The notes under the pieces were generated by a model. It saw only the letters and a program-made list of their open reading frames with translations. It ran no database searches and had not been told where the DNA came from. A stretch of 64,000 nt of DNA from a virus, in IMG/VR virus record IMGVR_UViG_3300046461_000342, positions 1-64,000 of that record. One strand, written 5' to 3'. The position numbers were made by a program, and so were the translations under genes. Shown here piece by piece: positions 33,472 to 53,388 of the stretch. Position 1 is the first letter of the stretch. The number at the start of each line of letters is the position of its first letter.

Positions 33472-33506
33472 GAGCCGCCCGGGAAACCAGGCGGCTCTTT
33501 TCGTTT
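33472..33506 (+). terminator. Rho-independent terminator
   Basis: GAGCCGCC and GGCGGCTC pair perfectly around a 10-base loop and are followed by TTTTCGTTT. This is the clearest intrinsic terminator in the window. Confidence 0.85.
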
Positions 33507-33585
33507 CTAGGGCTCGAATCATGATCACGCGACACGAACCGCTACACGAACGCTATCGACGCTCAGCCGCTACCCAGATGATTCT

Positions 33586-33666
33586 GGTGGGGCTGGGCAC
33601 GAGTGAGCCCAACTGACTGTAAATCAGCCGTTAATCCTGTGGCGGTGCAAATTCCGCCCCCCACCA
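33586..33666 (+). tRNA. tRNA-Tyr (GTA)
   Basis: Acceptor GGTGGGG pairs with CCCCACC; D-arm GGGC/GCCC; anticodon loop CTGTAAA; long variable region as expected for Tyr. The T-loop appears to have 8 bases and the first anticodon-stem pair is A-C. CCA is not encoded. Confidence 0.8.
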
Positions 33667-33687
33667 CTAGAGAGAAAATAGGTATCC

Positions 33688-33741
33688 ATGAGACGACTCA
33701 AACGAACGCTGCGACGCCGCCTATTTTGGGGTCGTAGCTAA
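33688..33741 (+). CDS. Very short Arg-rich peptide frame
   Basis: ATG 33688 opens a 17-residue frame MRRLKRTLRRRLFWGRS that runs into the next tRNA gene. Another tiny frame of the same kind (MKRLRRRR) follows the tRNA at the right end of the window. Translation is not shown, and there is only an A-rich stretch upstream. Confidence 0.25.
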   Translation: MRRLKRTLRRRLFWGRS

Positions 33742-33800
33742 GTGGACAAAGCAGCCGACTTTTAATCGGACGATCGAGGGTTCGATCCCCTCCGACCCTA
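33728..33800 (+). tRNA. tRNA-Lys (TTT)
   Basis: Acceptor GGGGTCG/CGACCCT, D-arm GCTAAGTGGACAAAGC, anticodon loop CTTTTAA, T-arm GAGGG-TTCGATC-CCCTC. CCA is not encoded. Confidence 0.92.
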
Positions 33801-33804
33801 CAAC

Positions 33805-33876
33805 GCCGCGCACGCTCAACGGTCGAGCACCATCCTCTTAAGATGGCTCCACAGGGTTCGACTCCCTGGTGCGGCA
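33805..33876 (+). tRNA. tRNA-Lys (CTT)
   Basis: Acceptor GCCGCGC/GTGCGGC, D-arm GCTC/GAGC, anticodon arm CCATC-CTCTTAA-GATGG, T-arm CAGGG-TTCGACT-CCCTG. Confidence 0.92.
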
Positions 33877-33880
33877 CTGT

Positions 33881-33939
33881 GAAGACGCGAAAGGCCCCGA
33901 ATACCGGGATCAGCCTGGATAAGCGATTGTGGCGTCTTC
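33881..33939 (+). ncRNA. Structured element between tRNA genes
   Basis: GAAGACGC at the left end pairs with GCGTCTTC at the right end and encloses further G/C-rich short pairings. The 59-base unit is too short and lacks a T-arm, so it is not a tRNA. It may be a small RNA or a processing signal. Confidence 0.4.
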
Positions 33940-34040
33940 GTTCGTTGACAACTGAATATAGGAATTCGAGATGACCACGTCATTGGGGTCGTACCGGGCG
34001 GATCCCTGGGCGATGAGTGTGACGTGTGTCATCCGTCTTA

Positions 34041-34105
34041 GCGGGGGTCTTGGGCTCCTAAGGCCCGAGGCCCCCGCGAAAGACATGTAGCTCCATTGCG
34101 GAGCT
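34041..34105 (+). ncRNA. Two strong hairpins between tRNA genes
   Basis: GCGGGGG/CCCCCGC (34041-34077) continues inward with GGGC/GCCC; then AGCTCC-ATTGC-GGAGCT (34089-34105). There is no T tract. They lie in the 244-base gap between tRNA-Lys and tRNA-Asp, which has no gene. Confidence 0.4.
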
Positions 34106-34120
34106 ATCGCAACGTGTTGT

Positions 34121-34192
34121 GCCCTCGTACGCATCGGGTGAGGCGGGCTGATTGTCGATCAGCTGAGGCAGGTTCGACTCCTGTCGGGGGCG
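34121..34192 (+). tRNA. tRNA-Asp (GTC)
   Basis: Acceptor GCCCTCG/CGGGGGC with wobble pairs, anticodon arm GCTGA-TTGTCGA-TCAGC, T-arm GCAGG-TTCGACT-CCTGT. Confidence 0.9.
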
Positions 34193-34196
34193 CCTA

Positions 34197-34290
34197 GACG
34201 GCTGCAGAGCCAATCTGACAGAGGGTCTGTTAGATCACAGCGAGTGTCGAGAATCTAGCCGGTAGCCGCGACCGTACTCGCAGCGGCGTC
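34197..34290 (+). ncRNA. Structured element between tRNA-Asp and the next tRNA
   Basis: GACG-GCTGC at the left pairs with GCAGC-(GG)-CGTC at the right. Inside is a 10-base hairpin ATCTGACAGA-GGG-TCTGTTAGAT (34213-34235). There is no T-arm and no coding frame. Confidence 0.4.
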
Positions 34291-34293
34291 GAC

Positions 34294-34368
34294 GGGGGGT
34301 GACAGGCAAGGGGCCGGCGCTGTTTCGCATTCAGCGGTTGGCGGGTTCGATTCCCGTGCTCTCCACCA
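34294..34368 (+). tRNA. tRNA, probably Ala (CGC), weak fold
   Basis: GGGGGGT/GCTCTCC acceptor with several wobble pairs, T-arm region GCGGG-TTCGATT-CCCGT and an encoded CCA are good. The anticodon loop TTCGCAT has a mismatched closing pair, and the D-arm is irregular, so the anticodon reading is tentative. Confidence 0.6.
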
Positions 34369-34379
34369 GATCAATGCTC

Positions 34380-34451
34380 GGGGTCATCGTCCAATTGGGA
34401 AGACACCTGGTTTGCACCCAGGAAATCGGGGATCGTGTCCCCGTGACTCCA
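34380..34451 (+). tRNA. tRNA-Ala (TGC)
   Basis: Acceptor GGGGTCA/TGACTCC, anticodon arm CCTGG-TTTGCAC-CCAGG, T-arm CGGGG-ATCGTGT-CCCCG. The T-loop starts ATC rather than TTC. Confidence 0.88.
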
Positions 34452-34470
34452 CCGTCTCTGAACACTCAGT

Positions 34471-34505
34471 GGGGATAAGGGCCAGATGTGGGCACCCTTA
34501 TCCCC
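34471..34505 (+). terminator. 11-base-pair hairpin, terminator or processing signal
   Basis: GGGGATAAGGG and CCCTTATCCCC pair perfectly around a 13-base loop immediately before tRNA-Arg. No T tract follows, so RNA processing is as likely as termination. Confidence 0.45.
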
Positions 34506-34508
34506 GTT

Positions 34509-34579
34509 GTCCCCGTCGTCTAAAGGAAAGGCGCAGTCCTACGGAGGCTGCTATGAAGGTTCGAGTCCTTCCGGGGACG
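34509..34579 (+). tRNA. tRNA-Arg (ACG)
   Basis: Acceptor GTCCCCG/CGGGGAC, anticodon stem CAGTC/GGCTG with loop CTACGGA, T-arm GAAGG-TTCGAGT-CCTTC. Its 3' half is echoed by a tRNA fragment at 35598. Confidence 0.88.
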
Positions 34580-34594
34580 CCAAGGCACTGAATC

Positions 34595-35368
34595 CTAGGC
34601 GTGCTGCTCGGCCTGAACGAGGGGGATGTTCGGGCGAACTGTAGCGATGAACTTCCTGAGCTTCCGGAAAGACTCGATGTCCGCCTGGATTTTCACTAGG
34701 GCGGCCAGCTTCGCGGCGGCTTCCTCTTCGACCTCTCTCCGGAGTTCCTCCAGCTCCTTGGTCTCTGCTTTGAGATCTTTTTCCTTGGCGGCTAGCTGAT
34801 CAAGGATTGTTTCGCCGTTCTCAAGCCAGGCAGCGATGTTGTCAGTTTTGCGCTTCCTCGGTGCCGCTACCGGTGTCGGCACGGGCACTGGCGTCGCTTC
34901 GAGCTCTGGCGTCGCTTCGAGCTCTGGCTGCGCCGGTATGACTCGCGGTGCTGCGGACCGTGGGGCGAGCCTGACGAGTTTCTGTTCTTCTACAGGCGCG
35001 GGACTGGGAGCGAGAGTGGGCTCGGCTGTCACCACGGCTGATGCGGGCGTGAGTGCCTCAGCGAGACCTGCAAGCGCTGGTGGGACTGCTCTCAGCCCCG
35101 GCACCGACGGCGGCAAGGGCAACGATTGTTGCGCCGCTTGTGGGTTCGGGACACGGCGGGTTGGCCTGGCGACTGGTCTCAGGCGTTTGTAGGGGATCTT
35201 CTGATTCCCGCCATTTTCGACCCGGACTGTCGCGAACGCCGACTCCTTGTCCACTATGCGGCCAGCTTTCACCGAGCTCGTTACGCCGCCATAACCTGGA
35301 TATTCAACCAGGACATCGTCGCCGACGGCCCAGTCGTCCCTTAAATCCTGCAGGCTGTTTTCTGGCAT
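34595..35368 (-). CDS. Protein with N-terminal SH3-like part, Pro/Ala linker and coiled coil
   Basis: 257 residues on the minus strand. The ATG at 35368 has a strong GGAGG site. Residues 1-65 (DDVLVEYPGYGGVTSSVKAGRIVDKESAFATVRVENG) look like a small SH3 or KOW-type barrel. Residues 70-175 are a flexible Pro/Ala/Val linker with a short internal repeat (PELEATPELEATP). Residues 180-257 form a charged coiled coil (LAAKEKDLKAETKELEELRREVEEE). It may bridge nucleic acid or protein partners. The family is unknown. Confidence 0.65.
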   Translation of the reverse strand: MPENSLQDLRDDWAVGDDVLVEYPGYGGVTSSVKAGRIVDKESAFATVRVENGGNQKIPYKRLRPVARPTRRVPNPQAAQQSLPLPPSVPGLRAVPPALAGLAEALTPASAVVTAEPTLAPSPAPVEEQKLVRLAPRSAAPRVIPAQPELEATPELEATPVPVPTPVAAPRKRKTDNIAAWLENGETILDQLAAKEKDLKAETKELEELRREVEEEAAAKLAALVKIQADIESFRKLRKFIATVRPNIPLVQAEQHA

Positions 35369-35400
35369 GGTTACGCTCCTCCAAGCGCAATGCCCTGAAC

Positions 35401-35469
35401 GTTACCGCCGAACTGGCCCTGCGCGCAAGCTCTCAAGTTACCGCCAGAATGTGTCCGCGCGCAAGCTCT
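35401..35469. repeat. Two tandem copies of a 33-base unit
   Basis: GTTACCGCC, a variable 11-base middle and GCGCGCAAGCTCT occur at 35401-35433 and again at 35437-35469, a 36-base period. They lie upstream of the minus-strand gene that starts at 35368 and could be operator sites. Confidence 0.6.
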
Positions 35470-35488
35470 TGGCGGCACAACCTTTCGT

Positions 35489-35572
35489 CGCCGCGGTGTA
35501 GAGCCGCACAAAGGAACGCAACTGCCACTGGCCATCGGCCGGTCGACCGAATCAGGCGTGACCTACCGGGGA
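35489..35572 (+). repeat. Copy 1 of an 84-91-base intergenic repeat
   Basis: Nearly identical to 36610-36700. It contains a small hairpin (GCGG-TGTAGAG-CCGC) that includes the GGTGTA motif, then ACTGCCACTGGCC, the palindrome GGTCGACC and AGGCGTGACCTACCGGGGA. The second copy lies just before tRNA-Asn; this copy lies before a tRNA fragment. Confidence 0.8.
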
Positions 35573-35597
35573 TGGAAAGGCGCCACGAAGGCTGGCG

Positions 35598-35628
35598 TGA
35601 AGGTTCAAATCCTTCCGGGGACGCCAGC
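35598..35628 (+). pseudogene. 3' fragment of a tRNA gene
   Basis: GTGAAGG-TTCAAAT-CCTTC followed by CGGGGACGCC matches the T-arm and acceptor 3' half of tRNA-Arg at 34509, but no partner acceptor strand or anticodon arm precedes it. It looks like a remnant left by recombination. Confidence 0.6.
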
Positions 35629-35649
35629 CCTCGTCAGAGTACGCCCCTC

Positions 35650-36063
35650 TCAAAATACGAAGTACGCACTTAGGAATGGCGTGGGTCGCCATTGTTCCCA
35701 GGGCGTGTTGGCCAGGATTGCTAGGCCGAAGTGCGGAGTGACATCGTGGCCGAGACCTATTCCAACGGAGCGAAAGCTTGCGAACGCGTTCAGGTTAGCG
35801 CGGTAAAAGTGGAGCGGCTCAATCATTATTCCGACGTCTCCGGAGTCAAGAAGTCTCCGCCCGTCGACTATGTCGCGAGCGTGGACACCGACAGCAGCTT
35901 TCAAGCGAAGCCCGAACCCGAATTTGTGCTCTGTGTCGGAATGGTGGCTTGGGGTTGATGTTACCTCGGTCGATCCTCCCGTCGCAGCAGGGGTGTTTTC
36001 CTGTGCGTTAGCTGAGAAGGGCGCGATGAGGGCGAATAGTAGAGCGAGACCTATGGTACGCAT
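35650..36063 (-). CDS. Exported small beta-barrel-like protein
   Basis: A 137-residue protein. The ATG at 36063 has GAGG upstream. It begins with a classic signal peptide (MRTIGLALLFALIAPFSANA, cleavage before QE). A Thr/Ser-rich linker follows, then alternating strands (KFGFGLRLKAAVGV, VGIMIEPLHFY, ASFRSVGIGLG, FGLAILANT) that end in the aromatic tail SAYFVF, typical of outer-membrane barrels. A phage product in the host envelope could alter adsorption or act in lysis. It is short for a complete 8-strand barrel. Confidence 0.6.
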   Translation of the reverse strand: MRTIGLALLFALIAPFSANAQENTPAATGGSTEVTSTPSHHSDTEHKFGFGLRLKAAVGVHARDIVDGRRLLDSGDVGIMIEPLHFYRANLNAFASFRSVGIGLGHDVTPHFGLAILANTPWEQWRPTPFLSAYFVF

Positions 36064-36224
36064 GCATAAGGCCTCAAATCAGAGATTTATGGGGTCCACT
36101 CAGGGTCCCGCGCCGGGGTAGTTCGATGGAGGGGTCAGTGTGGGCAAGGGTGCGTTCTGGAAAACGCATCTTGAGCTTGAAGAATGGCCCCTGTGGATTG
36201 TTCCTAGACCGGAAGGTAAAGAAC

Positions 36225-36608
36225 ATGTCCAAGTCAGCAACCGAGTCCTCCGATCCCCGCACCGACACTAGCAAGTCCTTCAACGACTACCTGAAGCGCG
36301 CTGAAGCGGAGTTCCTCGGGGAAGTTGGCAGGATTGTGAATGCCAAGCAGAAGTACTGTACATGTAGGGTCCGCGATGGCATCTCGATGAGTTTCCTCAT
36401 CGTCGAGGGCACGGACATCAGCGACTTCGACTTGAGTGGCTCGGTGTCCCTCACGTTGGCGTCGGCGAACTTCGAGGCGACGGTCCATCTGGACTTCGAT
36501 TCCATGTACAAGCGGAAGGTTCAGCGGTCGCACGCGGCCAAGATCGGCCTCATCACTGTCGACATGGTTGCCGAAATGGTTCTTGAGATTATCGGCGCTC
36601 GCAGGTAG
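36225..36608 (+). CDS. Unknown small protein
   Basis: 127 residues from ATG 36225 (MSKSATESSDPRTD), with GGAAGG upstream; the longer frame from 36126 seems unlikely. A helical start (NDYLKRAEAEFLGEVGRIV) is followed by a beta-rich part (YCTCRVRDGISMSFLIVEG, GSVSLTLASANFEATVHLDF) and a C-terminal helix. No motif is recognised. Confidence 0.55.
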   Translation: MSKSATESSDPRTDTSKSFNDYLKRAEAEFLGEVGRIVNAKQKYCTCRVRDGISMSFLIVEGTDISDFDLSGSVSLTLASANFEATVHLDFDSMYKRKVQRSHAAKIGLITVDMVAEMVLEIIGARR

Positions 36609-36609
36609 G

Positions 36610-36700
36610 CGCCGCGGTGTAGCGCCGCACGAAGGAACGCCACTGCCACTGGCCAGAGGCCAGAGGCCGGTCGACCGAATCAGGCGTGACCTACCGGGGA
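36610..36700 (+). repeat. Copy 2 of the intergenic repeat
   Basis: Matches 35489-35572 with a 7-base insertion in the middle (a doubled AGAGGCC). It ends at CTACCGGGGA, 13 bases before tRNA-Asn. Confidence 0.8.
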
Positions 36701-36713
36701 GAGTCCCGGTTTT

Positions 36714-36804
36714 TCCAGGTTAGCACAACGGTAGTGCGACGGCCTGTTAAGCCGTGTATGGCAGCAATGCCTCGATGGAGGTTCGATTCCTTCACCTGGA
36801 GCCA
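36714..36804 (+). tRNA. tRNA-Asn (GTT) with a long variable arm
   Basis: Acceptor TCCAGGT/ACCTGGA, D-arm GCAC/GTGC, anticodon arm ACGGC-CTGTTAA-GCCGT, T-arm GGAGG-TTCGATT-CCTTC, CCA encoded. The 21-base variable region holds a hairpin GGCA-GCAA-TGCC, unusual because Asn tRNAs have short variable loops. Confidence 0.85.
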
Positions 36805-36845
36805 ATCCTCGCTCTCACTTTCTTTTGGTGTAAGTTCTCTACATG

Positions 36846-36916
36846 GCGGCCGGGGAAGACGGCAATCCGCCGGCCTCATAAGCCGGAGAAACCTGGTTCG
36901 ACTCCAGGGGTTCGCA
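36846..36916 (+). tRNA. tRNA with CAT anticodon (Met or Ile2), imperfect acceptor
   Basis: Anticodon arm CCGGC-CTCATAA-GCCGG and T-arm CCTGG-TTCGACT-CCAGG are perfect, but the acceptor GCGGCCG/GGTTCGC has two mismatches and the D-arm is irregular. It may be partly degenerate. Confidence 0.55.
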
Positions 36917-36943
36917 TCCGAGAGCGTTCACTTCATCAGGCAT

Positions 36944-37016
36944 ACACGCGTAGCTCATTTGGTAGAGCATCTGTCTTGTACACAGAATGTTGCTGGTTCG
37001 ATCCCAGTCGCCCTCG
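36944..37016 (+). tRNA. tRNA-Thr (TGT) with broken acceptor stem
   Basis: D-arm GCTC/GAGC, anticodon arm TCTGT-CTTGTAC-ACAGA and T-arm GCTGG-TTCGATC-CCAGT are good, but only three acceptor pairs form. An outer ATCAGGCA/TGCCTGAT pairing encloses the gene. A second Thr (TGT) gene lies at 44525. Confidence 0.6.
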
Positions 37017-37063
37017 AAAGAGGTTATCCTGCCTGATTCCTCGAGCGCTCTCTATTTTTTCGT

Positions 37064-37255
37064 ATGACCGTCGGCGAGCTCATCCGCATCTTGAGTCAAT
37101 GCACGGACCCTGACCGGCCCGTGACCATCGGTATCAAGAGGCAGAGGTACTCGGCGTCGCTTGATGAGGTCTACCTCAACGCCGAAGGCATCGGGCCGAA
37201 TGGTACCGAGCTCGTGGTGGCGTTGGTCAACTCAGAGGAAGATCTCCCGAACTGA
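37064..37255 (+). CDS. Small conserved-type protein
   Basis: A 63-residue protein MTVGELIRILSQCTDPDRPV.. with alternating strands after an N-terminal helix. The pattern resembles many small phage proteins that start with TVGELI..L and end in acidic residues. The function is unknown and there is no clear ribosome site. Confidence 0.6.
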   Translation: MTVGELIRILSQCTDPDRPVTIGIKRQRYSASLDEVYLNAEGIGPNGTELVVALVNSEEDLPN

Positions 37256-37288
37256 GCTCATCCGCCATGTGCGGAAGGAGCAACGAGG

Positions 37289-37308
37289 CCGTCTCGCGAG
37301 AGGCGGCT
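37289..37308 (+). terminator. GCGA-tetraloop hairpin
   Basis: GCCGTCTC-GCGA-GAGGCGGC (8-base stem, G2-G7 mismatch tolerant) is followed by TTT and lies between the small gene and tRNA-Ile. A short T tract makes this a weak terminator or processing hairpin. Confidence 0.45.
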
Positions 37309-37315
37309 TTAGCCA

Positions 37316-37388
37316 CGGCCGTTATAACTAGGGTTTAGTTTGCCACGCTGATAACGTGGAGAAAGAGGTTCAACTCCTCTACGGCCGA
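37316..37388 (+). tRNA. tRNA-Ile (GAT)
   Basis: Acceptor CGGCCGT/ACGGCCG, D-arm AACT/AGTT, anticodon arm CCACG-CTGATAA-CGTGG, T-arm AGAGG-TTCAACT-CCTCT. Confidence 0.92.
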
Positions 37389-37410
37389 CCGAGAATGTTG
37401 TGACGAGTAT

Positions 37411-37487
37411 CTAGATGTAGCACAGCCTGGTAGTGCGCACCGTTTGGGGCGGTGAGGCCGTGGGTTCGAATCCCTCCATCTAGACCA
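37411..37487 (+). tRNA. tRNA-Pro (TGG)
   Basis: Acceptor CTAGATG/CATCTAG, anticodon arm CACCG-TTTGGGG-CGGTG, T-arm GTGGG-TTCGAAT-CCCTC, encoded CCA. Confidence 0.9.
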
Positions 37488-37488
37488 A

Positions 37489-37563
37489 CGAGCTGTAGTC
37501 AATCGGTATGACGCCTGTTTCGGGAACAGGAGGCAGCGGGTTCAATTCCCGCCAGCTCGACCA
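37489..37563 (+). tRNA. tRNA-Pro (CGG)
   Basis: Acceptor CGAGCTG/CAGCTCG, anticodon arm CCTGT-TTCGGGA-ACAGG, T-arm GCGGG-TTCAATT-CCCGC, encoded CCA. It starts two bases after the previous tRNA. Confidence 0.92.
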
Positions 37564-37586
37564 ACCACGTCCAGCACCAAAGCCGC

Positions 37587-37641
37587 GTAAGTCGTTCTAA
37601 GAACGTTGCGGTTACTCTGGGTAAGTCGTCCTCTGGACGTT
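37587..37641 (+). ncRNA. Tandem hairpins with compensatory changes
   Basis: GTAAGTCGTTCTAAGAACGTT (37587-37607) and GTAAGTCGTCCTCTGGACGTT (37621-37641) are two copies of one hairpin. The stem CGTTC/GAACG in one is CGTCC/GGACG in the other, so pairing is kept while sequence changed. They lie between tRNA-Pro and tRNA-Trp. Confidence 0.55.
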
Positions 37642-37662
37642 CCAGCGGTGCCCGTGGGTTTT

Positions 37663-37731
37663 ACGTCGCGGGCTAAGGTAGCCAAGCAGATTCCAAATCT
37701 GCAGGACAGCGTTCGATTCGCTGGCGGCGTG
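37663..37731 (+). tRNA. tRNA-Trp (CCA)
   Basis: Acceptor ACGTCGC/GCGGCGT, D-arm GGCT/AGCC, anticodon arm GCAGA-TTCCAAA-TCTGC, T-arm CAGCG-TTCGATT-CGCTG. Confidence 0.9.
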
Positions 37732-37851
37732 CCGAGAACCACCTACGTGAGAGATAGGCCCGAGAGTGCCGGGTGCGGCCCGAACAAATCAGTAGGCAAC
37801 CGCATATTTTGGTTTCCGCCGCGGCCGGCATGGGACGGCGGGAGTTCTCGG
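37732..37851 (+). ncRNA. Structured 120-base element
   Basis: CCGAGAAC at the left pairs with GTTCTCGG at the right. Inner pairs include CCTA/TAGG and CCGCC/GGCGG. No coding frame or tRNA arms are present. It directly follows tRNA-Trp and ends about 25 bases before the ATG of the next gene. Confidence 0.45.
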
Positions 37852-37876
37852 TGTACCAAGGTCCAAAGGACGACCG

Positions 37877-38491
37877 ATGGCTTACCAAATCACTAAGAAT
37901 GTGCCCGGGGGCTTCCCGGCCCTCACTACCTCTTGGCCAAACATCGAGGTTCTTGAGGCGCAGATCGGTGCGGCCATTACCAGTGCCAAGTGCGTGAGCA
38001 CTTTTTCCACTGTGGCGACTGGGACCCTCGTCCTTCAGTTCAACGTTACCCCGAGCGCTGCAGATCTGACCGCCATCGACAATGTCTGTAATACTCACAC
38101 TGGTGTCGGGTACGTGCGTGGAGCTCAGACGTTGTTTTCGGAGGGCGTTCAAACGGAGCCGGGCACGACTTACGTTACCAAGGCTACGCTGCAGTCAGGG
38201 CTTCTGGCAGGCGGAAACTATCTGGTCTCCTTTTACAGCGAGCTAGCCGTCGTGACCGCGGATTCAACATCAGGGGTCTCGGCTAGAATCTTGTGGGCGG
38301 GGGTGGAGCGGGCTGAAAGCTCCAACAACCTGACTTTCTACACTTCTTTTTCTGGGTCTGTTATCTTGGCGGCTAACGCACTCGACGCACCTTCGCTTGT
38401 GCTGCAGCTGCGCAGAGTGGGAACGGCGAATACGGCTCAGGTCCGCCGTATCCGCTTCGCAATCGCTCCGATAGAGAGCCCCGTGACTTGA
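37877..38491 (+). CDS. Probable virion or fibre-tip protein
   Basis: A 204-residue protein. The ATG at 37877 has AAGGA upstream. The N-terminus (MAYQITKNVPGGFPALTTSWPNIEVLEAQIG) is followed by beta-rich Ser/Thr/Ala sequence that ends in AQVRRIRFAIAP, similar in style to the C-terminal domain of fibre 3 (RLIRFENTAS). It is probably a trimeric tip domain encoded on its own, away from the late cluster. The function is inferred from composition. Confidence 0.5.
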   Translation: MAYQITKNVPGGFPALTTSWPNIEVLEAQIGAAITSAKCVSTFSTVATGTLVLQFNVTPSAADLTAIDNVCNTHTGVGYVRGAQTLFSEGVQTEPGTTYVTKATLQSGLLAGGNYLVSFYSELAVVTADSTSGVSARILWAGVERAESSNNLTFYTSFSGSVILAANALDAPSLVLQLRRVGTANTAQVRRIRFAIAPIESPVT

Positions 38492-38512
38492 GCGTGATCG
38501 CCTTATGATTCT

Positions 38513-38586
38513 GCCCGTGTCGCCTCAATGGTGAGGCACCGCACTCGTACCGCGGACTTCGGTGGGTTCGATCCCCATCACGGGCT
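38513..38586 (+). tRNA. tRNA-Thr (CGT)
   Basis: Acceptor GCCCGTG/CACGGGC, D-arm GCCTC/GAGGC, anticodon loop CTCGTAC with an A-C closing pair, T-arm GTGGG-TTCGATC-CCCAT. Confidence 0.85.
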
Positions 38587-38590
38587 CTAT

Positions 38591-38668
38591 GGGTTGTGAG
38601 CTAGTACGGTTATTCAGCGACCGCCTGAAGAGCGGTAGAACCGGGTTCGACTCCTGGACAACCCACCA
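38591..38668 (+). tRNA. tRNA-Phe (GAA)
   Basis: Acceptor GGGTTGT/ACAACCC, anticodon arm ACCGC-CTGAAGA-GCGGT, T-arm CCGGG-TTCGACT-CCTGG, encoded CCA. Confidence 0.9.
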
Positions 38669-38673
38669 CACGC

Positions 38674-38865
38674 CTAGTTCGAAGCTGGCGGCAGTTTGAC
38701 CGCACGTTTACGTCCGACCGAGCTCGAATGGTCGAGGCTGATCCAAGTGGCGAGAAAATAGTTCACCCAGCCAAGTGCCTCGGTTACCTCTTTGGCTCCG
38801 GCTTCTAAAGAGGCGAAGGTTCGTACAAGCAAGGTGCAAGTGAGGGCAGTCATGCGTGGCTTCAT
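38674..38865 (-). CDS. Small unknown protein, minus strand
   Basis: A 63-residue protein from ATG 38865, with AGGAG at the right distance. It reads MKPRMTALTCTLLVRTFASLEAGAKEVTEALGWVNYFLATW and has a basic end. It is possibly amphipathic. No family is recognised. Confidence 0.55.
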   Translation of the reverse strand: MKPRMTALTCTLLVRTFASLEAGAKEVTEALGWVNYFLATWISLDHSSSVGRKRAVKLPPASN

Positions 38866-38957
38866 GGCGACTCCTGTTCGGTTTGCGTGACCCTGCGAAT
38901 ACAATCGGGCGCCGGTGAATGTTCAAGCGCCTGCATGATGTAGGTTGCAGGTTACAT

Positions 38958-39031
38958 GCCCCCATCGTCTACGTTGGTTAGGATACGTCATTCTCAGTGA
39001 CGTGAACGGGGATCGTCGCCCCGTGGGGGTG
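38958..39031 (+). tRNA. tRNA-Glu (CTC)
   Basis: Acceptor GCCCCCA/TGGGGGT, anticodon arm CGTCA-TTCTCAG-TGACG, T-arm CGGGG-ATCGTCG-CCCCG. The T-loop starts ATC. Confidence 0.88.
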
Positions 39032-39158
39032 CCGGTTCGTGACACAGGCTTTAAGAATACGCGGCGACCTTCTAAGTCGTAGTGGCGGCGCTCGCTTGAT
39101 CAACGAGGTTTGCGCCCGGCTGCGAGGCTTGCGTTCTATGCCGCCGTCACGGACCTCT

Positions 39159-39230
39159 GCACACGTCGTCTAATGGTAGGACCCTTGGTTTTCACCCAGG
39201 ATAATGCCCGTTCGAGTCGGGTCGTGTGCG
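39159..39230 (+). tRNA. tRNA-Glu (TTC)
   Basis: Acceptor GCACACG/CGTGTGC, anticodon loop TTTTCAC between CTTGG and CCAGG, T-arm GCCCG-TTCGAGT-CGGGT. The preceding gap 39032-39158 holds a stem-loop like an Arg (TCT) anticodon arm but no full tRNA. Confidence 0.9.
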
Positions 39231-39246
39231 CCAGCTGTGCCGGGAG

Positions 39247-39414
39247 TCAACGCCTTCGAATCCAGTCATCCCACTCTTCGGCTTCAGAATAGTAGGGAAC
39301 CTCGATCGGCTTGGCTTCGTTGGGGTCGCAATCGCAGGCAAGGACAGGCCGGCCTTCCGGGTGTTCATCGTGATGGACGCCGGCGCCGCAACTAGAGCAA
39401 ACGAAATGAGTCAT
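39247..39414 (-). CDS. Small zinc-ribbon protein
   Basis: A 55-residue protein from ATG 39414 with AGGG upstream. CSSCG near the start and CDCD about 20 residues later give a four-Cys zinc ribbon; the rest is acidic and ends EEWDDWIRRR. It may act as a transcription or nucleic-acid adaptor. The exact role is unknown. Confidence 0.6.
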   Translation of the reverse strand: MTHFVCSSCGAGVHHDEHPEGRPVLACDCDPNEAKPIEVPYYSEAEEWDDWIRRR

Positions 39415-39686
39415 GAGAGCCCTTCTTATGAGCGGGCTCACCAGAGGATTACGGCGCGTAGGGTGCCTCCCTGCCCGCGCCAGAAGCAGCGCACAGAGCG
39501 CAATGACCACCAGCCGAGCCGGGGGCTTGGCGAATGGGCGTCCGCTAGGGGACGCGGTGGGAAAACCTAGCGCTTTTCACTCGAGATGTAGGTGCAAAAT
39601 AGTCTGGCAAATAGTCTGCAATAGATCTTCATAGATTGGGACGTTGCCCACTAACTGCCATAGGCTTCTTATGTCACGTTCTAGAC

Positions 39687-40760
39687 ATGACCTACGACTT
39701 TCGAGTGCGCACCGCCAGCAGCAAGAAACCTCTGTACGGACACGATAGCCCTCAGAACGCTTATGTGATCGACGACTATCCTAGTGGCTTCAAAGCCAGG
39801 TGCCGCAAGCGTGTATGGCTAGAGTTCAAGGCGAGGCAGGGCTTTCGCCTTGTCGAGCAGACTTCGAAGGCGTGGTATCCGGGTGGTGAGCCTGAGAAGG
39901 ATGCCGCGTTGAGCTGGAACAAACCCAAGGCCAGTACGTATGCGGGTGTGGCAGGGTGTCTGTATCTGGATGCACAAGACCACGTTCAGTGGGCTGGTCT
40001 TACCGGGTACTCGAATGCCTCTGCTGTCTCGGAGTTCATGAAAGAGTTTCCGAAGGCTGACTTTGATGGGATCAAGGCGCTGGTATTTGCGCAGACCAAG
40101 CACCTGGTAGCCCAACTGAAGGGGGCGACTTGGGTCATCAACGGGGAGCCGAAGCCAGCGTCGATGCACGAGCTCGGCGAGGCGCGCAAGGAATTGGAAA
40201 CTTGGTCGGCGATCGGCAAGGAAGTTGGGCTGAAGGCCGCGCCGCTTGTGCAGGACCTGATCGATGGCAAGGTCGCTCCGACGGTTGTCGATCCCGAAGA
40301 GATGAAAGCAAAGATGAAGGTCGAGCAGGAGGAGGCCGCGGCGGCGAAGGCTGAAGAGGTCAAGAAGACTCCCGGCGCGATGAGCTTCAACAAGTTCGCC
40401 GATTGGCTCGAATCGAAGGTCAAGGTCAAGGGTGACGCAGAGTTTACGATCGACCGGTCGGAGCACCAGCTCGGTGGAAGTGGGGCGCTGTACTGCAAAC
40501 TCTTCATCAAAGATAAGGGCCGCCTGCAGTTCACCATTGCTGGGTTTGATCGGAAGGATCGCGACCAGGCGGTGGTCAAGGTCAAGGTCGAGCAGTTCAC
40601 GAACTTCTTCGGCGGTGACCGCGCCAAGACATTGCTCCGCGCCAAGTCAGGCACGCCCGCCAAGATTGCGGAGTATCTGGCAGCGCATCTCAACAAGGTG
40701 TTGAGTGAGGCCGGTGAGGAGAAGACGGCGTCATCAGCGTTATTCGACTACTCCTTTTGA
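39687..40760 (+). CDS. Unknown protein with MTYDFR N-terminus
   Basis: 357 residues from ATG 39687. The first six residues, MTYDFR, are the same as in the J-domain gene at 41797. Residues 1-130 contain a Trp- and Tyr-rich domain. A helical Ala/Glu/Lys stretch (EEMKAKMKVEQEEAAAAKAEEV) sits near residues 205-230. The C-terminal 130 residues (FADWLESKVKVKGDAEFTIDRSEHQLGGSGALYCKLFIKDKGRLQFTI) look like a compact alpha/beta domain. No family is known. It may be a virion or host-takeover protein. Confidence 0.65.
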   Translation: MTYDFRVRTASSKKPLYGHDSPQNAYVIDDYPSGFKARCRKRVWLEFKARQGFRLVEQTSKAWYPGGEPEKDAALSWNKPKASTYAGVAGCLYLDAQDHVQWAGLTGYSNASAVSEFMKEFPKADFDGIKALVFAQTKHLVAQLKGATWVINGEPKPASMHELGEARKELETWSAIGKEVGLKAAPLVQDLIDGKVAPTVVDPEEMKAKMKVEQEEAAAAKAEEVKKTPGAMSFNKFADWLESKVKVKGDAEFTIDRSEHQLGGSGALYCKLFIKDKGRLQFTIAGFDRKDRDQAVVKVKVEQFTNFFGGDRAKTLLRAKSGTPAKIAEYLAAHLNKVLSEAGEEKTASSALFDYSF

Positions 40761-40776
40761 GTAGTGGCAGTAGTTT

Positions 40777-40847
40777 CGCGGGTATAGTTCAACGGTCGAA
40801 CGCATGCTTGCCAAGCATGAGGTGAGGGTTCAATTCCCTCTACCCGC
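40777..40847 (+). tRNA. tRNA-Gly (GCC)
   Basis: Acceptor GCGGGTA/TACCCGC, D-arm GTTC/GAAC, anticodon arm CATGC-TTGCCAA-GCATG, T-arm GAGGG-TTCAATT-CCCTC. Confidence 0.92.
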
Positions 40848-40882
40848 ACTGCGGCACCCTAGTGGTGTAGCTCGCTGAGGTG

Positions 40883-40946
40883 CTGCCACGTCGCCAAAGA
40901 GTTGCCCAGCTCCGCCGAGTACCTGGGTCGAACGACGGCGCGGCAG
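40883..40946 (+). ncRNA. Structured element before an expanded tRNA-like gene
   Basis: CTGCC/GGCAG closes a unit that contains GTCGCC with GGCG and CCCAG with CTGGG. No gene or tRNA arm is present. It lies between tRNA-Gly and the expanded tRNA-like gene. Confidence 0.4.
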
Positions 40947-40964
40947 TCAGGGACTCGGTCCATT

Positions 40965-41098
40965 GGGGGGTTGGGGGTTGGCCCCACTTCGACGGTAAAT
41001 CGAAAGCATCGACCAGCACCGCACACTCGTTTTCGGCAGTCGTCGGGAACCCTTTCGGGTGCTTTCAAGCATAGAAGGTTCGACTCCTTCATCCCCCA
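40965..41098 (+). tRNA. tRNA-like gene with about 70-base variable-region insert
   Basis: Acceptor GGGGGGT/ATCCCCC, D-like GGGG-TTGG-CCCC, stem TTCGA/TCGAA with loop CGGTAAA (GTA anticodon position, G in place of U33) and T-arm GAAGG-TTCGACT-CCTTC are all present. Between the anticodon arm and the T-arm lies a structured insert (AAAGCA/TGCTTT at 41003-41065 with inner hairpins). An HNH endonuclease gene begins seven bases after its end. Confidence 0.55.
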
Positions 41099-41104
41099 CT
41101 AACG

Positions 41105-41611
41105 ATGACAAGGGTCTGTAGAGTTTGTCAGGTTGAGAAGCCGTTGTCCGGCTTTGACCTTTCGTCCTCTGGGTACCGACGGAGGACGTGTAGCAATTGC
41201 CGTACGCAGCGCAAAAGGGCTCTCCATCCGGAGGCGCGAAGCAAAAAAGATGCTCGGTACAGAGCTAACCATCCTGTTGTGGTTCTGGTTACGGATTCTA
41301 GAAGTTCTGACAAGAAGCGCGGTAGGCCGGGTAACGATCTGAATCGCGATTTTGTGGCCGCGTTGATTAGGCAGGGGTGCTGCTATTGTGGTGAGACCGA
41401 GATGCGGATCACTCTTGACCGTATCGACAACTCGCTGGCGCATACTCGAGCCAACGTCCTGCCCGCCTGCTTGAGATGTAACTATATGCGGGGATCCATG
41501 CCCTACGAAGCTTGGTTGCATCTCGTCCCAGCCGTCCGCCAGGCGCGAGAGTTTGGGCTCTTTGGGGCTTGGCGATCGCAGCCTTTCAATCGACGCGTTG
41601 ACTTGACCTAG
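41105..41611 (+). CDS. HNH endonuclease
   Basis: A 168-residue protein from ATG 41105. N-terminal CRVCQVEKPLSGF...CSNCR is a zinc-finger pair common in phage HNH proteins. CCYCGETEMRITLDRIDNSLAHTRANVLPACLRCNYMRG carries the HNH core: D-R-I-D in place of the first His, Asn in HTRANV, and the Cys pairs that hold zinc. Such genes are often homing endonucleases. Here it starts seven bases after an expanded tRNA-like gene, which may be its target or its carrier. Confidence 0.8.
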   Translation: MTRVCRVCQVEKPLSGFDLSSSGYRRRTCSNCRTQRKRALHPEARSKKDARYRANHPVVVLVTDSRSSDKKRGRPGNDLNRDFVAALIRQGCCYCGETEMRITLDRIDNSLAHTRANVLPACLRCNYMRGSMPYEAWLHLVPAVRQAREFGLFGAWRSQPFNRRVDLT

Positions 41612-41682
41612 TCCTGCTTCGCTGCGGCGCTTCCAAATTACGCAACAGGCTGCGGCCCTCCACCGCTTTTCTATTGTTGGAT

Positions 41683-41698
41683 CGACCTGAACAGGTCG
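41683..41698. repeat. 16-base palindrome
   Basis: CGACCTG-AA-CAGGTCG lies in the 185-base gap between the HNH and J-domain genes, 13 bases before a GGTGTA motif. It may be an operator or a weak terminator. Confidence 0.4.
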
Positions 41699-41796
41699 AG
41701 CTCTGCGCGCTCCGGTGTAGCGCTAGAGCTCAACCTGGGGAGTCGGGCGCGCCACCCCTTCTTTGGCCGCCTACTGCGCTTCTGAGGCTCCAACGT

Positions 41797-42963
41797 ATGA
41801 CGTACGATTTTCGCGAAGCTCGAATCACGATGACCAGGCAGGAAGCTCTGGCTTTGCTTGGTTTCGGGCCTCACGACGCTCCGACCGAGGCAGACGCTAA
41901 GAAAGCGGTTCGGTCGAAGCTACGCGATGTGCACCCCGATAGCGGCGGTTCTACCTTCGCGATGCAAGAGGTCAATCGGGCGTACGATCTGCTCTTTCCG
42001 AAAAAGCCTCAGCCTCTGTACCGTGAGGATCCGGGGTCATCACAGCCAGTCCCGCAGACAGAACCTTCGTGGGCTGATGATGCGCCACCACGGCAGCAGT
42101 GGACGCCGCCGAAGGATGTGGTGGTCACTTGGGAGCAGGCCCGAGCTGGCGCTGGTATCCCGGGTGGGGTGGAGTGGCAGTTCACGACCGCGACACAGCG
42201 GGATAAGGGGGGCTACTCGGGTGACGAGTCATCGTTCTCGCGACACGCGTATGCGTACTATGGGCGAACGGCTGACCAGCATGTGTTTGTGGTTGCTGTC
42301 CATGTCTCAAGAAGTGACTACTACGTTGGCGGCGGTGGGCGGCGTGATGTCTGGGATATGCAGACACACAAGCTGCCGATCAAGAAGGACGAGCAGAGTA
42401 ACCCGGCGTGGCTGCATCGCCAGATCTCGACGGCGTTCGGGCTACCGACCGGCGACTTCGAGTACAACGGGCGCTTCAACTCCAAGGTACGGGATGCGAG
42501 AGGCTGGAGCCTCTCCGAGAAACTGCCGGCCAGCCCAGAGATCTCTCTCAAGCACTGGCTAGTAGAGTCCGGCCAAGTTGCCGGTGACGCGCCAGCAGTG
42601 GCGGGCCGCAAGCAGGTTGTCGAGCTCAAGCTGCATGTGGCGACTTTTGGGCCGGAGCCCGGTCATTACAATGACCCCAAGGCTGGCGCGTATAACAAGG
42701 ATGGGTATCAGGTCACACTCGTTCTCAATGGCAAGCCTGTTGTGTTGGGTGAGCACGATACTGTGGCGTTGATCTCCGTGAGACTTGGCGGCAAACGCCT
42801 GCTGAACGCGGTTTTTGGCGAGTACTTCTATCAAGGTGGCTCCAAGGTCCTCACGCGCATGCAGAAGGGCAAAGTCATTCTTGAGTGGATGGTGCAGAAA
42901 CTGACGGGAATTTCAGATGACACGCGTGCGGTTCTGCAAGCCGCGGCTGCTCAGATGAAGTGA
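41797..42963 (+). CDS. J-domain (DnaJ-like) protein
   Basis: 388 residues from ATG 41797. It begins MTYDFR, as does the gene at 39687. Residues 10-75 form a J-domain with the invariant HPD (about 46-48) and helix SKLRDVHPDSGGSTFAMQEVNRAYDLLF. J-domains stimulate Hsp70 ATPase. The rest (residues 100-388) is not a known DnaJ C-terminal region: it has WTPPKDVVVTWEQARAG, a HVFVVAVHV strand and a YYVGGGGRRDVWD loop. It may recruit host DnaK to phage proteins during assembly or replication. Confidence 0.75.
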   Translation: MTYDFREARITMTRQEALALLGFGPHDAPTEADAKKAVRSKLRDVHPDSGGSTFAMQEVNRAYDLLFPKKPQPLYREDPGSSQPVPQTEPSWADDAPPRQQWTPPKDVVVTWEQARAGAGIPGGVEWQFTTATQRDKGGYSGDESSFSRHAYAYYGRTADQHVFVVAVHVSRSDYYVGGGGRRDVWDMQTHKLPIKKDEQSNPAWLHRQISTAFGLPTGDFEYNGRFNSKVRDARGWSLSEKLPASPEISLKHWLVESGQVAGDAPAVAGRKQVVELKLHVATFGPEPGHYNDPKAGAYNKDGYQVTLVLNGKPVVLGEHDTVALISVRLGGKRLLNAVFGEYFYQGGSKVLTRMQKGKVILEWMVQKLTGISDDTRAVLQAAAAQMK

Positions 42964-43041
42964 CTTTTTTGGTGCGTCGCGCGGTTTTGTGATCTTTCGG
43001 TGTATGAAGGGATGGCACTGTGGCGCGACGGAGTTATAGAG

Positions 43042-43266
43042 ATGAACGCATTGATTGCGCTGTCGGTTGTCCTGTTCGGCACCGGCTGTGTAGCAAGCAC
43101 GCAAGGAGTTAGCTTGTGTCACCCTCTATCTAGAGTGACATCGAGCGAGTTGAGTGACAGGCCGGAAAGACGGTCACATGGGGCTTTTGGCGGGTGGCCG
43201 CCTACTGACACGGCACTAGTACCTCGGGTCTGCAAGGATCCCTCTCGAGTGCCCACAAGACCTTGA
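43042..43266 (+). CDS. Possible small lipoprotein
   Basis: 74 residues from ATG 43042 with GGAG upstream. MNALIALSVVLFGTGC looks like a lipoprotein signal with Cys 16 as the lipid site. The rest is polar. Its 3' part overlaps the tRNA-like gene at 43180-43292, which weakens the call. If real, it could be an outer-membrane spanin-type protein. Confidence 0.35.
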   Translation: MNALIALSVVLFGTGCVASTQGVSLCHPLSRVTSSELSDRPERRSHGAFGGWPPTDTALVPRVCKDPSRVPTRP

Positions 43267-43292
43267 AAGTTCGACTCTTTCAGGCCCCACCA
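43180..43292 (+). ncRNA. tRNA-like RNA lacking a normal anticodon arm
   Basis: Acceptor GGGGCTT/AGGCCCC, D-like GGCGG-GTGG-CCGCC, T-arm GAAAG-TTCGACT-CTTTC and an encoded CCA are clear. In place of the anticodon arm is a longer stem GGCACT/AGTGCC (43212-43253) with a 30-base inner part. It may be a tRNA mimic, for example a Y-RNA-like partner for the Ro60-like protein at 58767. Confidence 0.5.
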
Positions 43293-43433
43293 GTTCTCGT
43301 TCACTAGCATGACCTTACACGCACAGGTTCGAATCCTGACATAAGGCGCAAGCCCTATGAACGCGAGATGGTACTCGCACCCGGCTATTAACCAGGCATA
43401 CAAGCTAACCAGGTCCGGCACTCGAGCGAGAAC
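43293..43433 (+). ncRNA. Structured 141-base element with T-arm-like hairpin
   Basis: GTTCTCG at the left end pairs with CGAGAAC at the right end. Inside are CAGG-TTCGAAT-CCTG set within CCTTA/TAAGG (about 43320-43350), and GCGAG/CTCGC. It has a T-loop-like TTCGAAT but no complete tRNA. Confidence 0.45.
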
Positions 43434-43441
43434 GAAGTCTT

Positions 43442-43574
43442 GGCCGCCTACAGGGGATCGGTTCCCCGCCAGCCTACGGAGCTGGAGCGCAAGCTCCCAG
43501 AGTGATGAACTCGTTCCCGCGAGGGGACACCGCATCGCTCTTACAAGTCAGTGGTTCGACTCCACGGGCGGCCT
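43442..43574 (+). tRNA. tRNA-Arg-like (ACG) gene with about 64-base variable insert
   Basis: Acceptor GGCCGCC/GGCGGCC, D-like GGGGA/TCCCC, anticodon arm CCAGC-CTACGGA-GCTGG and T-loop TTCGACT are present. The variable region is expanded to some 64 bases with hairpins GGAGC-GCAA-GCTCC and GTTCCC-GCGA-GGGGAC. The T-stem has one mismatch. Confidence 0.55.
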
Positions 43575-43597
43575 CTAAGAAGTGATTGTGATTGTTT

Positions 43598-43673
43598 GGC
43601 GACGTAGCCCAACGGCAGAGGCGACACGTTTAGGCCGTGTTTAGTGGAGGTTCAAATCCTCTCGTCGCTACCA
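43598..43673 (+). tRNA. tRNA-Leu (TAG) with short variable loop
   Basis: Acceptor GGCGACG/CGTCGCT, anticodon arm ACACG-TTTAGGC-CGTGT, variable TTAGT (5 bases), T-arm GGAGG-TTCAAAT-CCTCT, encoded CCA. Leu tRNAs normally have a long variable arm. Confidence 0.88.
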
Positions 43674-43674
43674 T

Positions 43675-43750
43675 CGCTCCGCGCCCATGGTGGGTGCCCC
43701 ACTCTCATAAGGTGGCAAGGCTGCGGGATCGTTACCCGACGGAGCGACCA
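43675..43750 (+). tRNA. tRNA with CAT anticodon (Met or Ile2)
   Basis: Acceptor CGCTCCG/CGGAGCG, anticodon arm CCACT-CTCATAA-GGTGG, T-loop ATCGTTA, encoded CCA. It has no initiator features (no GGG/CCC stem). The CCA overlaps the ATG of the next gene. Confidence 0.8.
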
Positions 43751-44118
43751 TGCCTGATTTTATAGAGGTTCTGAAGGGTCTGCCAACCCATGTGTCGTTG
43801 TGCTACGCCGATAGCAAGGCGGGCGTACCCAAGGACGGGGGGCGAGAGTGGGACACTCCGCCGGAGATGGTTGTGGTCGGGCTCCAGTTCAGCGAGAGTG
43901 GCTTCGGTTTCGGCGAGATCACGATCAAGCAAACCGCTCAAGGCGTGTTTCTCAACACGGAGTGTATGAGCTCAGAGCGGGTCAAGAAATACCTGGCGGC
44001 GCTAGTAGACTTAGCCATCACGGACAATGATCAAGACCCCGAGAAACACGCTCTCTACAACGAGGTCATGGGGCGCGGATGCGGCCCGCGATGTCGTGTC
44101 TGTTTCCCGGAAGAGTGA
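43750..44118 (+). CDS. Unknown protein, first of a tandem pair
   Basis: A 122-residue protein starting at ATG 43750, inside the CCA of the preceding tRNA. It has a beta-rich middle (EMVVVGLQFSESGFGFGEITIKQTAQGVF), then DPEKHALYNEVMGRGCGPRCRVCFPEE at the end. The next gene is a paralogue with the same plan. The C-terminal Cys cluster suggests a metal site. The function is unknown. Confidence 0.6.
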   Translation: MPDFIEVLKGLPTHVSLCYADSKAGVPKDGGREWDTPPEMVVVGLQFSESGFGFGEITIKQTAQGVFLNTECMSSERVKKYLAALVDLAITDNDQDPEKHALYNEVMGRGCGPRCRVCFPEE

Positions 44119-44144
44119 ACGACCACGAAATAGGGATTGCCGAT

Positions 44145-44516: not shown

Positions 44517-44524
44517 AGAAGTTT

Positions 44525-44596
44525 GCCCAGTTAGCACAATAGGCAGTGCACCGGATTTGTACCCCGGTGATGCGGGATCGTGCCCCGCACTGGGCT
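44525..44596 (+). tRNA. tRNA-Thr (TGT)
   Basis: Acceptor GCCCAGT/ACTGGGC, D-arm GCAC/GTGC, anticodon loop TTTGTAC with an A-C closing pair, T-arm GCGGG-ATCGTGC-CCCGC. Confidence 0.82.
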
Positions 44597-44620
44597 CTGA
44601 CGTAGTGAAGGCTCATTCGG

Positions 44621-53386: not shown

Positions 53387-53388
53387 CT

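Follow-up and report, generated by a model that had tools for sequence, protein, structure and literature searches.

A long variable arm is usually the mark of tRNAs for Ser, Leu, Tyr and Sec, and for some of these it is a signal to the synthetase. What does such an arm mean on a tRNA-Asn carried by a virus, and does it change the amino acid that the tRNA receives? The locus that raises this question lies in a stretch of 64,000 nt (positions 1 to 64,000 in a virus record of 86,580 bases), referred to here as the window.

Structure of the window tRNA-Asn

According to ARAGORN the window contains 37 tRNA genes, among them a tRNA-Asn(gtt) predicted at exactly 36714-36804 on the plus strand. The Rfam tRNA model scores this gene at 59.7 bits over 36714-36801 with a gathering cut-off of 29, and thus the canonical tRNA fold is present. 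Both programs and our reading of the sequence agree with the initial annotation, which had described a tRNA-Asn (GTT) with a 21-base variable region. The acceptor strands TCCAGGT/ACCTGGA give U1-A72, the D stem is GCAC/GTGC, the anticodon arm ACGGC-CTGTTAA-GCCGT and the T arm GGAGG-TTCGATT-CCTTC; the acceptor, D, anticodon and T arms are all intact, so that the description of everything outside the variable region as a good tRNA-Asn is also confirmed (Table 1). An archaeal-type intron is ruled out, because the anticodon stem closes right after the loop.

The variable region is parsed as GTAT-GGCA-GCAA-TGCC-TCGAT, with 4 and 5 bases flanking the stem. The minimum-energy fold of the gene is the cloverleaf with GGCA-GCAA-TGCC as a fifth arm, which is the proper hairpin that had been claimed for it. 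The fold energy was equalled in 5 of 200 shuffles (z -2.1). When the 21 nt of the variable region were shuffled alone 20,000 times, a 4-bp Watson-Crick hairpin appeared in 19% of the shuffles and one with a GNRA loop in 0.15%. Taken by itself the hairpin is only mildly unlikely by chance; it is its recurrence in phages that convinces.

Class I tRNAs are defined by a variable loop of 4-5 nt and class II tRNAs by one of 10 nt or more (PMC7609411). With 21 nt the window tRNA-Asn falls outside class I, and with a hairpin in a variable region of at least 10 nt it belongs structurally to class II. It resembles bacterial class I tRNA-Asn(GUU) in its cloverleaf, CUGUUAA loop, U1-A72, G73 and CCA but differs by the 21-nt hairpin region, which measures 4-6 nt in the 124 distinct short-arm phage tRNA-Asn collected here. 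With the class II tRNAs (Ser, Leu, Tyr, Sec) it shares a hairpin-forming variable region of at least 10 nt, whereas its isotype is Asn, its core is that of class I (C13-G22), and its arm is flanked by 4 and 5 bases; in phage tRNA-Ser the commonest flanks are 1 and 1.

Table 1. Features of the armed tRNA-Asn(GUU) gene and its immediate surroundings (window positions).
Feature	Position	Strand	Basis
tRNA-Asn(GUU) gene, class-II-like variable arm, CCA encoded	36714..36804	+	ARAGORN, Rfam, fold
Acceptor stem, 5' strand (U1, C2)	36714..36720	+	sequence
D arm; C13-G22 pair and A15 (opposite U48), in the style of a class I core	36723..36737	+	sequence
Anticodon arm; anticodon GTT at 36746-36748	36739..36755	+	ARAGORN, sequence
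Variable region, 21 nt, GTATGGCAGCAATGCCTCGAT	36756..36776	+	sequence
Hairpin GGCA-GCAA-TGCC, 4 bp, GNRA loop	36760..36771	+	fold, shuffles
T arm	36777..36793	+	sequence
Acceptor stem, 3' strand (A72), discriminator G73 (36801), CCA (36802-36804)	36794..36804	+	sequence
Segment replaced in sibling L010 (6214-7123) by 910 nt with two type I tRNA-Asn	36712..36810	+	blastn break points
Terminator-like hairpin ACCGGG-GAGAGT-CCCGGT with T run, directly upstream	36693..36714	+	by eye; scan did not call it

Armed tRNA-Asn genes in other phages

A strict pattern applied to viral records gave one further case, L009, with the stem GAGG-AAAA-CCTC. A relaxed pattern matched at least 119 stretches, and the phage total is accordingly a lower bound. 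From 118 relaxed-pattern loci, 7 without an acceptable cloverleaf were set aside, and together with the window and L009 this left 113 long-arm genes, which comprise at least 98 distinct phage tRNA-Asn (window included) with variable regions of 13-27 nt. These genes keep the marks of tRNA-Asn: G73 is present in 96 of the 98, U1-A72 in 90 and the CTGTTAA anticodon loop in 92. Patterns with a fixed GGTA overlook other tRNA-Asn. In a viral scan that was not ascertained on the arm, 4 of 120 stretches were known long-arm loci and 116 were new; of 102 further distinct tRNA-Asn in the new loci, 2 had a variable region of at least 10 nt.

Searches of 50,697 phage records with an armed tRNA-Asn query matched 386 and 317 of the records, by similarity alone. 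Fifteen tRNA-Asn genes of named phages were dissected and 12 were armed, a proportion that is not a rate since the genes were taken from matches to the armed query. The armed ones are those of AV124, PVP-SE1, Seu621, nepoznato, Aeh1, 44RR2.8t.2, T2P, Psa21, Hena1, FENT2, Ro1 and pEp_SNUABM_01 (the last read from locus L047, which is identical over the 281 bases compared), while the tRNA-Asn of ECML-4, Ea35-70 and Kc263 are without arm. In the Vequintavirinae examined the gene is flanked by tRNA-Lys and tRNA-Asp. The tRNA-Asn of Vequintavirinae, Phapecoctavirus, Straboviridae (Aeh1, 44RR2.8t.2), Phikzvirus (T2P) and Tepukevirus (Psa21) are, like that of the window, phage-borne GUU tRNAs with a hairpin arm, but their arms measure 15-16 nt and have other stem sequences, and a sequence link to the window gene was not found. 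Public records annotate the armed genes as plain tRNA-Asn.

Pairing and covariation of the arm

Of the 98 long-arm genes, 87 have a Watson-Crick stem that is 3 bp or longer, against a shuffled mean of 36%, and 11 are without one; when G-U pairs are counted, the figure is 90 of 98 against 62% in shuffles. GNRA caps account for 74 of 98 tetraloops of gained arms. For covariation we aligned 32 genes with a 15-nt variable region, namely all 26 distinct genes and 6 from named phages, which were picked by length and not by pairing, so that the alignment represents the 15-nt length only. Paired cells make up 77.3% of it, compared with 44.8% in shuffles, and cells changed on both sides number 45 versus 16.4. 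The covariation score is 0.764 versus 0.210, with slid controls reaching at most 0.297. None of 500 shuffles was as high in any of these three measures. The number of pairs (4 vs 3.8 in shuffles, 413/500) and of pair types (12 vs 12.3, 347/500) did not rise above shuffles, measures that saturate with only 4 pairs. The outermost pair fails in 15 of the 32 genes. Among Vequintavirinae the stem of PVP-SE1 shows compensation, GAGC/GCUC having become GAGU/ACUC. The covariation comes from other phage lineages and not from the window's own arm.

The tertiary pair 15-48 also covaries. In the genes with A14 and a purine at 15 it is A-U in 35, G-C in 13 and A-A in 1, and neither A-C nor G-U occurs (p = 5e-12, calculated on the 48 A-U and G-C genes). 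Left unscored were 37 of the 98 in which position 14 is not A in the register chosen, and 12 with a pyrimidine at 15.

Cellular genomes

A stricter pattern run on a collection of 84,980 species gave 64 hits. Read by eye, most are archaeal genes with an insert at the usual intron site. The others include pattern overruns (L136, L155, L161, L181), tandem repeats (L147, L186), a non-tRNA (L190), a bacterial gene whose insert looks like an intron (L150) and an archaeal gene with an insert in the variable region (L180). One bacterial hairpin arm was found, on the tRNA-Asn of L140. This gene lies on a contig binned to a Verrucomicrobiia genome (L140 3390-7445) that carries 11 tRNAs in about 4 kb, and the contig may be phage DNA or a mobile tRNA array.

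Because only 7 of the 118 viral loci match the stricter pattern, the relaxed phage pattern was rerun on 398 + 398 bacterial genomes of two phyla, in which it found no hairpin arm. Its two hits are in the centre genomes, an Azoarcus tandem duplication near a normal copy and a Blautia pattern overrun. Sensitivity on the normal tRNA-Asn gene was 50 of 60 genomes, measured in the first phylum only. The initial annotation had held that Asn tRNAs elsewhere are of type I; this stands for the cellular genomes tested but not for phages, with their 98 or more distinct long-arm genes. The armed tRNA-Asn is a real feature.

The sibling phage and the surroundings of the gene

A sibling phage (L010, a 255-kb record) is 99% identical by blastn on either flank of the window tRNA-Asn. 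Identity ends at 36711 and restarts at 36811, and the swapped window segment is thus 99 nt long. The sibling's two tRNA-Asn in the replacing segment have variable regions of 6 and 5 nt, and the T loop of the second is odd. That tRNA-Asn takes the place of tRNA-Asn at the same site is a hint that the armed copy would serve as a tRNA-Asn. The two copies in the sibling led us to consider a fusion of two tandem tRNA-Asn genes, which was rejected since the window gene and the 910 nt of the sibling do not match in blastn. Outside the swapped site, too, the sibling record gave no match to the armed gene, and a loose tRNA-Asn pattern matched only the first of the sibling's two type I genes.

No homologue of the window's own arm was found, and the closest sibling is without the gene. 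L080 is the sole other match to the layout of this arm; it does not match the gene at the DNA level, and its 10 kb share no protein match with the open frames of the window. Window positions 33500-45000 gave no near DNA match among phage records, and a promoter scan around the armed gene returned zero matches.

Several other features of the window were observed. Upstream of the tRNA-Asn, a stretch of some 85-90 nt (36610-36700) is repeated about 1.1 kb earlier (35489-35572), the copies matching at 87-88% across window and sibling. Three tRNA-like genes are found by Rfam with ARAGORN silent: 36846-36916 (CAT anticodon, by eye), 36948-37011 (TGT anticodon, by eye; its acceptor stem looks poor) and 33805-33876, directly after a tRNA-Lys. 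Two long frames at 46189-49950 and 50109-52067, named by eye from their translation, read as repeated PAS modules followed by a histidine kinase and a receiver, an unusual cargo for a phage. A 1253-aa protein at 18225 has 6 matches, one of them full-length, in an uncultured 485-kb phage.

Origin of the arm

We compared tRNA bodies after removing the variable region and masking the anticodon; the nearest-body and class counts use 99 and 100 armed genes, respectively, which are the ARAGORN genes of all viral loci. For 71 of the 99 armed genes the closest body outside the armed group is an ordinary tRNA-Asn. Among the top ten neighbours ordinary Asn is enriched 8.9-fold, as opposed to 0.89 for Tyr, 0.45 for armed Ser and 0.44 for armed Leu; some small classes are also enriched (armed Met 3.0-fold, armed Gly 2.7-fold, armed Lys 2.2-fold and Gln 2.1-fold). 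A Ser, Leu or Tyr tRNA remoulded by an anticodon change was rejected, as the armed bodies are Asn-like. For the window body Asn is nearest by a small margin, with a score of 45.0 versus 44.5 for a Trp.

On a tree of 223 tRNA-Asn bodies, parsimony counts 28 changes of arm state, of which at least 4 are forced by well-supported branches; the tree is weak, having few columns (64). The three rows nearest to the window body are short-arm tRNA-Asn, without branch support. Taken together, the tree and the nearest-body comparison argue for repeated gains of an arm by Asn bodies, of which that of the window is probably a separate one. The cores differ as well: C13-G22 is found in 95 of 124 short-arm phage tRNA-Asn and in 6 of 100 long-arm ones, in which the 13-22 pair shifts towards U-A, G-A, A-C and C-A. 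Unlike most armed genes, the window tRNA retains C13-G22.

Aminoacylation

Would the arm change the enzyme that charges this tRNA, as the initial annotation proposed? Bacterial Asn identity consists of the anticodon and G73, with U1-A72 as a determinant for the Asn amidotransferase (PMC9976931). The window tRNA has the GUU anticodon and G73, and U1-A72 is also present. According to the same source, the long variable arm is the main determinant of serine identity and G73 a further one that is weaker in E. coli; G1-C72 and G2-C71 occur together in most bacterial tRNA-Ser; C2-G71 acts against SerRS in the tRNA-Leu of E. coli; and E. coli LeuRS tolerates loss of the variable arm (PMC9976931).

G1-C72 and G2-C71 are both present in 1 of the 98 long-arm Asn genes, the window tRNA having U1-A72 and C2-G71 instead. 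An arm geometry like that of serine tRNAs, taken as a stem of at least 4 bp with at most 1 unpaired 3' base, occurs in 106 of 126 phage tRNA-Ser and in 8 of 98 tRNA-Asn. Phage tRNA-Ser arms mostly have stems of 4-7 bp; the window arm has a stem of 4 with flanks of 4 and 5 and is not of the Ser type. Most of the Asn arms have a short stem and about 3 unpaired 3' bases, and in this they resemble phage tRNA-Tyr and not tRNA-Ser. TyrRS needs the variable arm. With the Asn identity bases intact, the serine acceptor pairs absent and the arm unlike that of tRNA-Ser, charging would seem to be unchanged; a change of synthetase is unlikely, and the proposal is not borne out by the sequence comparison. 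Class II synthetases approach the tRNA from the variable-loop side, so the arm could get in the way of AsnRS. The idea that the phage brings its own arm-reading synthetase, with a domain of the AsnRS/AspRS/LysRS type, is unsupported, as PF00152 was found in none of 10 phage records, which are possibly fragments.

Variable arms on other phage tRNAs

Arms on other isotypes were counted as distinct genes in the same viral loci, which were chosen for tRNA-Asn and are in many cases long-armed, and a few of the ARAGORN calls look mis-assigned. On this basis a variable region of at least 10 nt was seen in tRNA-Lys (9/114), Cys (7/55), Trp (6/62), Met (8/107), Thr (6/152) and Pro (5/109), and in none of the tRNAs for Phe (0/56), Val (0/69) and His (0/49). 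An arm is present in 126 of 128 tRNA-Ser and 70 of 71 tRNA-Tyr, while 63 of 177 tRNA-Leu have none. In loci not picked for long arms, 12 of 459 distinct tRNAs reach 10 nt, excluding Ser, Leu, Tyr, Asn, Ile and Sec. Within the window itself, three tRNA-Leu have 5-nt loops (TAG 43598-43673, GAG 53314-53387 and TAA 54659-54733) and two have longer regions (CAG at 53222, 15 nt; CAA at 53866, 16 nt); arm-less tRNA-Leu are common in other phages too. Phages thus blur the divide between class I and class II. As far as the gene sequences tell, the arm varies where a synthetase need is unrecorded and is constant where SerRS and TyrRS require it. A mycobacterial tRNA cluster, argued to be phage-derived, includes a short-loop tRNA-Leu(TAG) (PMC6582537); it is comparable to the window tRNA in being mobile and of the "wrong" variable-loop class, but there the anomaly is a short loop on Leu and here an arm on Asn.

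Two further cases were noted. In Caulobacter phage Ccr10 (L435 123-305) both tRNA-Lys have hairpin arms, the variable regions measuring 15 and 19 nt. In phage tRNA-Ile(UAU) the variable region is very often 20-26 nt long and forms a stem of 3-5 bp under a loop of 7 nt, for example CAGAUUA, CAGAUAA or UAGAUNN (viral loci L027, L046, L114, L198, L227, L234, L258, L285 and others). A motif-free Ile(UAU) scan, among the 80 stretches listed, returned 46 already found with CAGATWA and 34 new ones; of the latter, 8 are long, 7 of these having AGAU or UGAU, while 17 are short and 9 undissected. Over all new Ile(UAU) loci, AGAU or UGAU is present in 24 of 26 distinct long genes, and 28 are short. The anticodon loop of tRNA-Ile(GAU) is CUGAUAA. 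The arm loop of tRNA-Ile(UAU) resembles it, like a second GAU, and could be an aid to IleRS in accepting a tRNA with UAU or a decoy.

Discussion

We cautiously favour, as probable by a little on balance, that this is a working phage tRNA-Asn which the host charges with Asn as usual and whose added arm AsnRS ignores. The tRNA would read AAU and AAC and would receive Asn by the host's ordinary route, either AsnRS or AspRS followed by the GatCAB amidotransferase, since the bases that those enzymes read are unchanged. The arm itself would be a short hairpin added to the variable loop of a class I tRNA-Asn and projecting from the folded core. Because Asn identity is independent of the variable loop, phages would be free to gain such arms, and an arm once gained would stay folded through its base pairing, often under a GNRA cap. 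For the window tRNA we infer transcription, charging with Asn and a near-neutral arm. That tRNA-Leu is often arm-less whereas tRNA-Ser and tRNA-Tyr are nearly always armed fits the identity rules in the literature, and near-neutral tolerance is most simply the account of the pattern across isotypes. Neutrality alone leaves unexplained why arms are frequent in phages and went unseen in the sampled bacteria.

The best rival we regard as possible though unlikely: the arm would be favoured by selection as a shield from host defences that cut tRNAs, altering the region that the nuclease grips or cuts so that the phage copy survives. Long arms recur in phages, with no hairpin arm in 796 bacterial genomes, and they have arisen repeatedly (the 28 parsimony changes, at least 4 of them forced). 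The tRNAs that phages carry rescue them from defences of this kind (PMC11555353), and Septu and retron-Eco7 cleave the variable loop of tRNA-Tyr, the T5 tRNA-Tyr being reported as resistant through its distinctive variable loop (PMC13096335). The same sources also hold cases that speak against a need for shape: the tRNA-Tyr of phage T6 does not escape cutting and acts through gene dosage (PMC13096335), and E. coli tRNA-Tyr expressed from a phage promoter rescues too, so that supply can outweigh shape, while against PrrC170, which targets tRNA-Lys, the phage SP15 tRNA-Asn (arm state not seen) gave no rescue (PMC11555353). The arm varies freely in tRNA-Leu as well, which the near-neutral account covers. 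We know of no defence that cuts the variable loop of tRNA-Asn. A further explanation starts from the core. In class I tRNAs m7G46 makes core contacts, and the arm might replace them and steady the core when host modification lags behind infection. The departure of the 13-22 pair from C13-G22 in long-arm genes, as if the 13-22-46 contact had been abandoned, and the stable GNRA caps are in line with such a role, but the window's own tRNA still has C13-G22, and we consider this explanation distinctly improbable.

The two remaining alternatives are less probable still. A gene in decay, or one that took up an insertion by chance not long ago, without role and confined to this phage, would account for the absence of the gene from the sibling, for the short-arm tRNA-Asn nearest to it on the tree and for the ease with which a bare 4-bp hairpin arises in shuffles; we think it very improbable, given that the other arms, A15 opposite U48, G73 and CCA are all intact, that a GNRA-capped 4-bp stem is rare and that the design recurs with covariation elsewhere. 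Lowest of all we place the idea that the arm turns the tRNA into a SerRS substrate, with Asn codons partly read as serine. A long arm and G73, both serine determinants (PMC9976931), are indeed on the window tRNA, and what makes this scarcely credible is the combination of its acceptor pairs and arm flanks, neither of the serine kind in it nor, with few exceptions, in the other armed tRNA-Asn.

A broader and decidedly speculative proposition, which we hold to be doubtful, is that the variable arm is a swappable phage module selected by tRNA-targeting immunity, one that the tRNAs for Asn, Lys, Cys, Trp, Met, Thr and Pro have acquired, that those for Leu have shed and that is fixed in Ser and Tyr alone, whose synthetases have to read it. 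If that were true, the armed tRNA-Asn would be an immune-evasion tRNA, charged with Asn yet no longer a target. The GAU-type loop on the arm of tRNA-Ile(UAU) suggests that some arms carry a recognition signal of their own.

Our literature search, with subscription papers mostly outside its scope, found no paper describing a long-arm tRNA-Asn. The sequences are already in public records, and what seems new is remarking on the arm. The repeated arms on phage tRNA-Asn, including that of a phage whose recorded host is E. coli K-12 (MG1655, in the nepoznato record), provide a natural experiment on arm-reading synthetases. They also offer a cheap and concrete way to ask whether phages reshape their tRNAs to evade tRNA-cutting immunity.
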